Source of the DNA: an uncultured Bacteroidales bacterium
GTDB taxonomy: Bacteria; Bacteroidota; Bacteroidia; Bacteroidales; UBA932
DNA length: 57,907 nt
Assembly (NCBI GenBank): GCA_900318355.1
Contig: ONKE01000040.1
Span: 1-57,907, forward strand
Reading direction: 5' to 3'
A program made the position numbers and the translations under genes. This document shows, piece by piece, positions 3,756 through 57,907 of this stretch. The number at the start of each line of letters is the position of its first letter. Position 1 is the first letter of the stretch. The notes under the pieces are model-generated. The model was not told where the DNA came from, ran no database searches, and saw only the letters and a list, made by a program, of their open reading frames with translations.

Positions 3756-4864
3756 ATTGTTTGTGTGTTGGTGGTGATTTCCTTGTCCTGGGCGGCTTCT
3801 TCGGCCGGTGCGGTGATGTCCGGTAGACGGATGCCCTTGCGCTGGCGCTGACGCTGGGTCCAGCGCTCGCGGGCGTATTGCTGCATGTCGGTGTAGGCGT
3901 CGTTCTCGTCTATGATTTCCATGCCGAGAATGGTCTCTATGATGTCTTCGAGGGTCAGGATGCCCTGGAAGCAGCCGTATTCGTCAATTATGAGGGCGAT
4001 CTGGTCCTTGGTCTTGAGGAGGGACTCCCAGATGTCGCCGACCGAGGTCTCTTCGTTGAAGAGGGCGATGTCGCGCTTGATCTGGCCGAGGGTGGTAGTG
4101 AATTTGTCTTCGGCCAGGCGCTCGAGAATGTCGTAGCGCAGCACGTAGCCGGTGATGTATTCGGGCGACTCCTGCCAGACCGGTATGCGGGAATAGTGGG
4201 AGAGGTCTTCGTTGCGGTAGAACTCCGTGAGGGTCATGGACTCGGGGGCGATGGCGGCCACAACGCGCGGAGTCATGACGTCGTAGGCCTTGACGTCGTC
4301 CAGACGCATGATGTTCTGAATGACTTTGTTTTCGCTCTTGTCCAGGACGCCTTCCTCCTCGCCGATGTTGGCCATCGCCGACACTTCTTCGCGGCTCACC
4401 GCAGGGTCTTCGTCCTTGGGGGTTATGAGCTTGCTGATTAGGCGGATGAGGACTACCAGCGGGTACATGATCCAGATCAGGAACTGAATGATGCGGGCCA
4501 CCCACGTGAGGTTGCGCCAGTAGGAGGTGCCGATGGTCTTGGGGATGATTTCGGAGAAGATGAGGATAAGGATGGTGGTTATCGCCGAAATGAGGCCGAA
4601 CCACTCGTTGCCGAAAACCAGGGCGGTCTGCCGGCCGACTCCCGCCGCGCCGATGGTGTTGGCGATGGTGTTGAGCGAGAGGATGGCGGCTATGGGGCTG
4701 TCGATGTTGTCTTTAAGGCGCAGGAACAGCCCTGCGTTCTTGTTGCCTTCCTCCTGGAGCATCGTCAGATACGACACGGGAGTGGACATCAGGACCGATT
4801 CCAGAACGGAGCAGACGAAGGAGATGCCCATCGCGCCCAGAAGAAAGAGTAGCAGAAGACCCAT
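3752..4864 (-). CDS. CNNM/CorC-family membrane protein with CBS domains
   Basis: The 370-residue protein has a DUF21 (CNNM) membrane part at about residues 1-140 with three to four hydrophobic segments and the typical short polar stretch near the first helix ([15 protein letters not shown]). A CBS pair spans about residues 185-310 ([19 protein letters not shown] and [25 protein letters not shown], ending in [14 protein letters not shown]). It ends in a basic tail without a full CorC transporter-associated domain, so it is shorter than the 420-430 residue HlyC/CorC proteins. The family is linked to magnesium or cobalt efflux. The start is fixed because the first membrane helix begins at residue 2. 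A -7 box lies 7 bases upstream. Confidence 0.85.
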
Positions 4865-15389: not shown

Positions 15390-15420
15390 TTTGCAGTTCT
15401 CCTAAAAATGCCTACCTTTG
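15390..15420 (+). promoter_or_regulatory. promoter of tRNA-Asp
   Basis: TTTG (15390-15393), 19 bases, then TACCTTTG (15413-15420): a full match to the Bacteroidota promoter. The tRNA begins about 40 bases downstream. The same TACCTTTG box drives the structured RNA near 57610. Confidence 0.8.
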
Positions 15421-56133: not shown

Positions 56134-57219
56134 ATGACTGACCTCATCTCCATCGCCTCCCTTTTCGCAATCGAGGGCGATATCCTGGAAATCAAGCCTT
56201 TGGGCAACGGTCTTATCAACGATACTTTCAAGGTAGTGACGGCGGGGCAGTCGCCCGACTACGTCCTCCAGCGCATTAACAACGCCATCTTTACCGACGT
56301 AGATCTGCTTCAGTCCAACATCGAAGCCGTCACCCGCCATATCCGCGCCAAACTCCTGGCGGCAGGGGAGGACGACATCGACCGCAAGGTGCTCCGTTTC
56401 CTTCCGCTGCGCGACTCCGCCCGAACATGGGCCCTTGCCGACGGCAAATACTGGAGGGTTTCGGTGTTCATAGCCGGCGCAAATACCTACGAGACAGTCA
56501 ATCCCTACTACAGCGAGTTCGCCGGCGAGGCTTTCGGCCACTTCGAGGCCATGCTCGCCGACATCCCCGACACTCTGGGCGAGACCATCCCCGATTTCCA
56601 CAACATGGAACTTCGCTGGAGGCAGCTGCGCGAAGCCGTCGCCGCCGACAAGGCCGGGCGCATGTCCCTTCCCGAGAGCCGCGAGATCCTCGCCGACATG
56701 GAGAAATATGCTTCCGACATGTGCCGCGCCGAACAGCTCCACCGCGAAGGAAAGCTGCCCAAACGCATCTGCCACTGCGACACCAAGGTCAACAACATGC
56801 TCTTCGACGCCGACGGCAAGGTCTTGTGCGTCATCGATTTGGACACCGTGATGCCCTCGTATGTCTTCTCCGACTTCGGCGACTTCCTTCGCACCGCCGC
56901 CAACACCCTCCCGGAAGACGACCCCGACACCGAACGCGTCGACTTCCGCATGGACATCTTCGAAGCCTTCGCCCGCGGCTACCTTCGCGGCACCGCCTCC
57001 TTCCTGACCCCCGTCGAGCGCGACAACCTTCCCTACGCCGCCTGCCTTTTCCCCTTCATGCAGGCCGTCCGCTTCTTCGCCGACTACCTTAACGGCGACA
57101 CCTACTACAAGACCCTCTACCCCGACCACAACCTCGTCCGCACCCGCAACCAGCTCCGCCTCTTCCACCGCGCCCTCTCCAAAGTCCCTCAGATGCAATC
57201 CTTCATCCAGCAGCACTAG
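56134..57219 (+). CDS. sugar kinase of the APH/NahK type
   Basis: The 361-residue protein has a kinase fold of the aminoglycoside phosphotransferase type: an N-terminal lobe with ILEIKPLGNGLINDTFKV and YVLQRIN (candidate ATP-site Arg), a catalytic loop RICHCDTKVNNMLFD (D216, N220) and the metal motif VIDLDTVM (D235). Close relatives include N-acetylhexosamine 1-kinase (NahK), which makes sugar-1-phosphate. No signal is present, so it is cytoplasmic. It may feed released GlcNAc, GalNAc or mannose into metabolism; the substrate is not shown. It shares an operon with the HAD lipoprotein and GlsB. Confidence 0.78.
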   Translation: MTDLISIASLFAIEGDILEIKPLGNGLINDTFKVVTAGQSPDYVLQRINNAIFTDVDLLQSNIEAVTRHIRAKLLAAGEDDIDRKVLRFLPLRDSARTWALADGKYWRVSVFIAGANTYETVNPYYSEFAGEAFGHFEAMLADIPDTLGETIPDFHNMELRWRQLREAVAADKAGRMSLPESREILADMEKYASDMCRAEQLHREGKLPKRICHCDTKVNNMLFDADGKVLCVIDLDTVMPSYVFSDFGDFLRTAANTLPEDDPDTERVDFRMDIFEAFARGYLRGTASFLTPVERDNLPYAACLFPFMQAVRFFADYLNGDTYYKTLYPDHNLVRTRNQLRLFHRALSKVPQMQSFIQQH

Positions 57220-57229
57220 CCGCCGGATA

Positions 57230-57260
57230 CTTGCAGGAAAACCCTGCCAAAAACTGCAAG
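57230..57260 (+). other. hairpin CTTGCAG/CTGCAAG downstream of the sugar kinase
   Basis: CTTGCAG (57230-57236) pairs with CTGCAAG (57254-57260). An alternative inner stem is GCAGG (57233-57237) with CCTGC (57243-57247). No T run follows, so it is a weak terminator at best. Confidence 0.4.
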
Positions 57261-57283
57261 CCCCGCTGGGCGGGAGAGCTTGT

Positions 57284-57393
57284 GCGTGGAGGCAAAACGC
57301 CTGAAACTCAGCATTTTACGCAAAATGCCTGTCGCGATTTCAGAACAGCCTTTTTGCGTAAACGTCTAACTTATAAATGGTTATCCTCCACGC
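57284..57393. repeat. nested inverted repeats
   Basis: Four inverted repeats are nested or overlap: GCGTGGAGG (57284-57292) with CCTCCACGC (57385-57393); CTGAAA (57301-57306) with TTTCAG (57338-57343); GCATTTT (57311-57317) with AAAATGC (57322-57328); and TTTACGCAAAA (57315-57325) with TTTTGCGTAAA (57352-57362). The last two are mutually exclusive. The whole unit could be a structured RNA or a small mobile element remnant. No gene is seen from 57220 to 57433. Confidence 0.6.
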
Positions 57394-57433
57394 AGTTGCG
57401 CCGCAATTTGTCCCGTTTTTGCACCGTGCAGCA

Positions 57434-57547
57434 TCATTGTCTTTGTGACCCCATTGCAACATCACCCGGTAGCGCAGCCTCCATCTCTTTGAACATGCTC
57501 ATTTCATGTTCAGAGGGAGTGTATTCATTTTTAATTGCGGCCTCCAT
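57434..57547 (-). CDS. possible small protein of 37 residues
   Basis: An ATG at 57547 opens a 37-codon frame ending in TGA at 57434. The peptide is acidic, starts MEAAIKNEYTPSEHEMSMF, and ends with AMGSQRQ. It has no signal or membrane segment and I do not recognise it. It lies divergent from the structured RNA. It could be a fragment of a decayed gene or chance. Confidence 0.25.
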   Translation of the reverse strand: MEAAIKNEYTPSEHEMSMFKEMEAALPGDVAMGSQRQ

Positions 57548-57585
57548 AATTCTCTAAGTTTTTGAATCTGATGCTAAGGTTAATA

Positions 57586-57617
57586 TTCGTTATTTTCGTT
57601 AAAAATATCTACCTTTG
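57586..57617 (+). promoter_or_regulatory. strong promoter for the RNA at the right end
   Basis: TTCG (57586-57589), 20 bases, then TACCTTTG (57610-57617), a perfect -7 box identical to that of tRNA-Asp. The spacing fits. The transcript should begin near 57623. Confidence 0.65.
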
Positions 57618-57622
57618 GAATC

Positions 57623-57907
57623 GCATTCCTACTAGGGGAACGCGAGCATAAAATACCGAAAGCGTTTTAGCTTTGATTCCGACCAAGTCGAATCGCCAGT
57701 TCATAGGGTACCGGAGTTCAAGTGAGACGCTTGCGCTGGCTATATTATGGGTTTCGGCTCACACTATAGCAGTGCGAGCCGTTATTACTTTAACTTGTTC
57801 GTACCCGGGGTTCTGGCGAACCTGACTTGGAGATCAAGACCTAAAGGAGGCTCGCACTTTCGCGTAGTATGGGTATTATCCCGCCAACGAGCCAGGCGGA
57901 ACGGGAG
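57623..57907 (+). ncRNA. large structured non-coding RNA, cut by window end; candidate HEARO/omega-RNA
   Basis: No long frame covers this stretch, but helices are dense. GATT-C-CGAC/GTCG-AATC (57675-57694) has a single bulged C. GGCTCACACT/AGTGCGAGCC (57756-57780) is 10 pairs with one A-C mismatch. GGTTC/GAACC (57809-57822) has a 4-base loop. CTTG/CAAG (57826-57838) follows. GGCTCG/CGAGCC (57849-57854 with 57888-57893) encloses a smaller GGG/CCC stem. A stable-RNA-type promoter precedes it. The size (at least 280 nt) and style recall HEARO/omega-RNA, which sits just upstream of IscB, with a guide at the 5' end. That is a resemblance from memory. It is not a tRNA, tmRNA, SRP or RNase P RNA by any motif I can see. 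Confidence 0.55.

Follow-up and report, generated by a model that had tools for sequence, protein, structure and literature searches.

The window analysed here, 57,907 nucleotides of an uncultured Bacteroidales bacterium, is an entire contig (C75), and the RNA that concerns us occupies its last ~300 bases, up to the contig end. Because the window is the whole contig, the assembly cuts off the gene side of the RNA; judged from the relative UBA4360, the start codon of the next gene would lie ~10 nt past 57907. The first-pass annotation had described a highly structured, non-coding RNA behind a Bacteroidota promoter with the -7 box of the tRNA-Asp gene, and this much is borne out. The -7 box TACCTTTG at 57610–57617 (+) is identical to the octamer at 15413–15420, which ends 40 nt 5' of tRNA-Asp, and the window holds two copies of it on the + strand and none on the other. 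Just past the position at which transcription would be expected to start lies a 5' hairpin with complementary arms, P0 (57623–57643, +), which differs in sequence in UBA4360 and is still able to form there. The fold energy of 57623–57907 is -110.2 kcal/mol, compared with -85.1 ± 5.0 kcal/mol for 200 shuffles (z -5.0), none of which folds as well. No ORF of at least 60 aa overlaps 57586–57907. A shorter frame of ~54 codons, open from ~57747 to the contig end, runs through the 3' part in phase with the HmaA of the relative; some of the changes in UBA4360 keep base pairs yet would replace amino acids, and we therefore prefer RNA constraint to coding and rejected this frame.

That closest relative, Bacteroidales bacterium UBA4360 (G057), belongs to the same genus and shares 95% identity with the window over 57634–57907, whereas 5' of the promoter the two sequences are unrelated. 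Its next gene matches HmaA and starts 53 nt past the match to our covariance model, 10 nt beyond the base equivalent to the contig end, and the operon consists of HmaA, HmaB, and HmaC by PADLOC matches. PADLOC lists Hma as a candidate defence system (PMC8565338). The part of the window that follows strand T (described below) matches UBA4360, and hmaA is therefore expected after 57907; a search of the window's own genome found no hmaA at E≤1e-60, the contig ending before the expected site. From this similarity, the next operon of the window is probably Hma.

The window RNA belongs to a large RNA family without an overlapping Rfam 15 match in the scans made, which supports the fallback reading of the first-pass annotation, that of an unrecognised structured RNA with a strong promoter. 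Its conserved core, 57658–57865 (+), matches the family covariance model R1 with 99.8 bits (E 5.6e-26). A core pattern retrieved 103 stretches from 84,980 species genomes, and 99 of the 103 also match the two family HMMs, both of which were built from family members, so that the 99 include model-building sequences. Among the 80 pattern hits listed with taxonomy, 76 are from Bacteroidota and the other four (L108, L119, L122, and L136) are those without an HMM match, which we set aside as chance. Cultured Bacteroides, Parabacteroides, and Dysgonomonas are among the records hit, including Bacteroides stercorirosoris DSM 26884. Since the pattern fixes the letters of segments PA5 and hp1, the constancy of both in that set is by construction. 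With R1 at E≤0.001 the RNA was found in 82 of 295 sampled Bacteroidales genomes, more than a quarter and often in several copies, and in 10 of 296 genomes of a phylum sample, two of them weakly (E 2e-4 and 6e-4); both counts include the window's own genome and are lower bounds, because eight candidates were scored per genome. One genome (G572) has at least eight sites, all eight scored candidates matching on the RNA strand, and another (G386) has seven sense sites, two of which have equal scores and are perhaps one site assembled twice, antisense matches being excluded from these copy counts. Twelve of 14 chosen genomes of the genus have an R1 match, and blastn of 400 genus genomes gave 52 with a match at E≤0.1, 24 of them at E≤0.001, own genome included. 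Remote members, many of ~165 nt, retain the same plan. At least 18 of the listed covariance-model matches in the Bacteroidales sample start less than 600 bases from the first base of a contig, and the window copy likewise lies at a contig end; assemblies may break there at repeats or variable islands.

At the gathering score, Rfam 15 matches nothing over the window core, tRNA being the only such match in the window. With the limit relaxed to E 10, a scan of the last 708 bases gives CRISPR-DR35 (57477–57525) and ES239 (57512–57617, other strand), which at E 5.7 and 8.2 are at chance level, far under their cut-offs, and upstream of the core. No Rfam match covers the core in locus L004, in 18 relatives (E≤1), or in 20 further loci (gathering score); elsewhere in the scanned loci the matches were to tRNA, DUF805, DUF805b, and, below threshold, STnc70, CRISPR-DR35, and ES239. 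Titles and abstracts retrieved by topic and by core sequence strings contain no description of the element.

Our structure tests support several helices plus a loop-loop pairing as the predicted scaffold of this RNA. In a family alignment of the genus copies, conserved blocks stand between helices that vary in sequence yet stay paired. In a set of 61 RNAs, 83.7% of the cells of the named structure are paired versus 74.7% after shuffling, with 341 versus 141 double changes and a covariation score of 0.311 versus 0.163, none of 500 shuffles reaching the real value in any of the three; sliding the partners by 1–3 columns lowers the covariation score to at most 0.133. Real and shuffled data are separated weakly by a further measure, how many pairs show a change on both sides at least once (32 versus 28.4, reached by 22 of 500 shuffles). 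In an alignment-free test, each RNA's strand was matched with its own and with other RNAs' partner strands, using 81 RNAs (115 thinned at 90% similarity, with the omission of one lacking a recognisable hp1 and three lacking a recognisable hp2 loop, two of these cut by the locus end). Because segments were delimited visually, on the tested sequences themselves, and kinship among the sequences inflates z, it is the contrast with the controls that counts: the control pairings g5-d3, d5-g3, and a-F3 lie between -0.4 and 0.9. The strongest signal comes from helix g, in which g5 (57683–57689) pairs with g3 (57824–57830) at z 32, with double changes in all seven counted pairs. Helix d joins d5 (57706–57711) to d3 (57801–57806) at z 28.5, with 51.3% of cells paired in the 61-RNA alignment (A3), where its columns are ragged. 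Strand a (57675–57681) pairs with b (57712–57718) at z 6.9, reached by none of 2000 permutations, and strand c (57792–57800) with F3 (57832–57838) at z 8.6 versus 0.2 for a-F3. All of these segments, and those that follow, are on the + strand. The minimum-energy fold is a single nested rod, which was rejected as the whole structure: it needs a-F3, whereas a-b and c-F3 are supported instead; b-c also scores (z 4.1, 81 RNAs), a pairing unused in our model.

Two hairpins and one further pairing add to this. The loop of hp1 (GAAU-CGCCA-GUUC, 57690–57702) pairs with that of hp2 (GGUUC-UGGC-GAACC, 57809–57822) at z 11, with a GC/CG swap in 10 of 61 rows. A helix proposed earlier at 57809–57822 is thus the hairpin hp2, which carries a compensatory U-A to C-G change at 57811/57820 in UBA4360. 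The hp2 stem reads GGC-GCC in 25 of 100 rows and GGU-ACC in 29; none was found in 13, and the remainder have other, partly spurious stems. PA5 (57660–57671) pairs with PA3 (57726–57732) at z 6.2 in the 100-row alignment A5, which includes remote members and from which three antisense rows were dropped, row L203 being kept despite an empty M, as against z 0.5 in the pattern-selected set, in which PA5 is fixed by construction.

Covariation further shows strand M (GTGCGAGCC, 57772–57780) to have two mutually exclusive predicted partners, PJ5 (57729–57736, overlapping PA3) and T (GGCTCGCACTTTC, 57849–57861). In the same 100 RNAs, M-T reaches z 11.9 and PJ5-M z 7.9 (0 of 2000 permutations), versus -1.9 for the control PJ5-T; both alternatives covary, and such mutually exclusive helices could serve as a riboswitch expression platform; PA5-T also scores (z 4.9, 100 RNAs), a pairing that has no place in our model. 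Between PJ5 and M lies the hairpin PH/PI (57738–57770), with z 7.0 for PH5-M3 and 64.5% of cells paired in PI. The helix proposed earlier at 57756–57780 accordingly stands as local pairing around M, with the addition that M has a competing partner. The one proposed at 57849–57893 is supported by family-wide covariation of a long-range contact, in which the 5' half of T base-pairs with a hairpin loop further downstream (z 11.5 in 69 RNAs and 10.4 in 128, control windows -0.7 to 2.0), the 69 being those of the 81 left after removal of RNAs without a recognised T or M, with too short a downstream stretch, or from the first set. In the window this hairpin is PK2 (CCGCC-AACGAGCCA-GGCGG, 57881–57899), whose loop CGAGCC (57888–57893) pairs with T, and in UBA4360 the PK2-type hairpin ends 18 nt 5' of the start codon. 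An attenuator would have a GC-rich helix and then a U-tract. In the family, 113 of 139 RNAs have at least six T in the eight bases after T, compared with 11 of 139 in a stretch 20–42 nt further on and, within the core, 18 of 139, a count to be read with the U-tract tail that the models used to find family members themselves contain. The window lacks the usual U-tract, and CGCGT, characteristic of its subclade, follows T instead. Transcription reaches the PK2 loop only beyond the presumed terminator, so this loop cannot itself be what decides termination.

For the U-tract count and the 128-RNA loop test above, and for the promoter, start-codon, and N-terminus counts that follow, one copy was kept at two-copy loci (144 nonredundant copies, 139 loci). 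The motif TAnnTTTG, the family form of the -7 box, occurs at -75 to -15 in 107 of 134 members, whereas three control windows lying farther upstream have it in 15, 2, and 3 of 134. The start codon follows the core at a median of 57 nt, and at 40–70 nt in 81 of 128 ATG-first genes, as counted over same-strand ORFs within 260 nt with a choice of ORF that favours near starts. Covariation, promoter, and spacing together give the structured leader of a protein-coding gene that is typical of riboswitches, and we infer that leader and gene are on one transcript. Two loci (L178:1280-1454 and 1501-1655; L230:3499-3694 and 3868-4058) have tandem copies with apparently one gene after both, and L205, near-identical kin of L178, is likewise tandem. 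Tandem arrangement is known for some riboswitches. The genes themselves are diverse: the 89 first downstream proteins of the pattern set fall into 44 singletons and 16 groups of two to five, and 99 scanned first-gene proteins contain 72 Pfam families, each in at most five members. By a crude N-terminus rule and against a rough ORF baseline, 70 of 98 first genes of at least 150 aa have a signal- or membrane-like N-terminus, the figure for other ORFs, taken from 27 loci, being 56 of 165. The commonest first genes of the pattern set are two families of five members each, one of them being lipoprotein-like with a motif like VEVSGSMNGFFRAN (L064, L094, L100, L125, and L134). Taken as a regulon, genes as unrelated as these give no indication of a metabolite.

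Among the immediate kin of the window RNA, the loci with visible genes lead restriction-type or Hma operons. Six loci (the window, G057, G381, G386, G208, and G452) have in common the T sequence GGCTCGCACTTTCGCG and the absence of a U-tract, and a scan of 360 genus genomes found this sequence in five genomes, all among these loci, with no new subclade member. Besides the Hma operon of UBA4360, the next operon encodes a BPTD_3080-family restriction enzyme and a type III methyltransferase in G381, a type III methyltransferase and a restriction enzyme, followed further on by an AbiLi-like gene, in G208, and an HKD-SNF2 helicase-like protein and a type IIG enzyme in G386. The first protein of G452 is 94% identical to that of G386 and its second gene is of similar start and length, so the five loci represent four kinds of system. 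At L033:2576-9241 an HKD-SNF2 protein, matched only partly by its best PADLOC model, adjoins a type IIG restriction-methyltransferase, and L031:1878-8582 has the same pair by similarity. Outside the subclade, L215 has a helicase-like gene (seen by eye) and a DUF4007 protein occurs elsewhere in the family, so that the link to defence is strong in the subclade and not exclusive to it. In the window's lineage, the gene neighbourhoods indicate that the RNA is most likely a leader of restriction-type defence operons. It does not appear to be an obligatory component of Hma: two further hmaA loci, one with 65% identity and one broken and with 69% identity, lack the RNA, which is therefore not a fixed part of that system.

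We propose, with a probability of about two in three, that the RNA acts in cis as a switch within the 5' leader of the operon that follows it, in this case probably Hma. We favour this reading because the two partners of M compete, a U-tract follows T, T pairs with a loop on the gene side, and copies occur in tandem. In the proposed mechanism, the promoter inside the element would start the leader, and pairing of M with T would end transcription or keep T from the gene. Pairing of M with PJ5 would instead leave T free for the loop beside the start codon, and the gene would be read. The balance between the two states may be set by a factor bound by the conserved scaffold, that is, helices g, d, a-b, and c-F3 and the loop-loop contact. 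The loss of the U-tract in the window's own subclade is a point against the switch, and control there would act at translation. The competing pairings can be tested directly in cultured carriers.

Several of the same observations could be read in other ways. A stand-alone, trans-acting small RNA that merely lies before genes would have its own promoter and terminator, as the -7 motif and the U-tract after T might indicate, and would sit easily with very diverse neighbours; we nevertheless consider it unlikely, since T covaries with a hairpin loop past the U-tract and before the gene, and the start-codon spacing is narrow even if the ORF choice favours near starts. No better placed, in our estimate, is a static leader that protects the mRNA or aids translation without switching. 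Such a leader would account for a compact 5' fold before diverse genes at a narrow distance from the start codon, but not for the retention by covariation of both competing partners of M, nor for the U-tract that follows T in most members. Spread of a mobile or selfish RNA, intron-like or transposon-like, before genes is suggested by the several copies per genome and by the RNA cores of G057 and G452, which are 98% alike while their flanks and genes differ. We regard this as very improbable, as promoter, spacing, and the gene-side loop pairing are retained from copy to copy; the window RNA has no blastn match in phages or plasmids and four patterns have no exact match in viral contigs, and a phage or plasmid origin was rejected on these grounds.

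Least credible of all is the IscB guide RNA (HEARO, or omega-RNA) that the first-pass annotation had put forward, with its guide at 57623–57640. The resemblance consists in length and a hairpin-rich layout and nothing more: HEARO (RF02033) RNAs are ~200–300 nt with several hairpins and lie directly 5' of a gene. The Rfam check for HEARO that the annotation had called for gave no match in the window at the gathering score and none at E≤10 in its last 708 bases (57200–57907), nor was there one in the scanned loci. HmaA takes the place of IscB in UBA4360, and inspection by eye noticed no IscB among the listed first downstream genes, for which 25 of the 72 Pfam families were listed. Because both the promoter and the 5' hairpin are parts of the element, nothing points to a free guide at 57623–57640. 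Since neither a covariance-model match nor an IscB gene was seen, we consider the omega-RNA reading all but ruled out.

Returning to the cis-acting switch, the closest parallel is with attenuator riboswitches, which likewise are 5' leaders with a complex core that may include a loop-loop contact, exclusive helices, a U-tract, and occasional tandems. The present family differs in having neither a known ligand nor an Rfam match over its core, and in that its genes are unrelated and often exported or defence-related rather than of one metabolic pathway. Hma is matched by the downstream operon of UBA4360 in all of HmaA, HmaB, and HmaC, and differs in that other hmaA loci do without the RNA. More tentatively, and at somewhat less than even odds, the family may be a new riboswitch or signal-sensing leader class, spread through the Bacteroidales and sparsely present in the rest of the phylum, that would control dozens of unrelated accessory genes; the window's subclade would be common to four restriction-type anti-phage systems, with one RNA signal setting different defences. 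Restriction genes are under tight expression control, and to our knowledge a shared RNA layer over them would be new. The signal of the family would explain how bacteria of the gut and rumen regulate exported proteins and defence operons together.

Four loci have further features near the RNA or in its first gene. By eye, the first gene of L083 encodes a small precursor-like protein and that of L059 a possible radical-SAM-type protein, and either may be a RiPP locus. DUF805 and DUF805b RNAs (RF03081, RF02914), which Rfam classes as cis-regulatory like the element proposed here, lie 3' of members at L169:1702-1767 and 2666-2734 and at L026:2174-2208, with DUF805 39 nt 3' of the L169 core; they differ from the family in having separate coordinates and models, with no overlap with the core.
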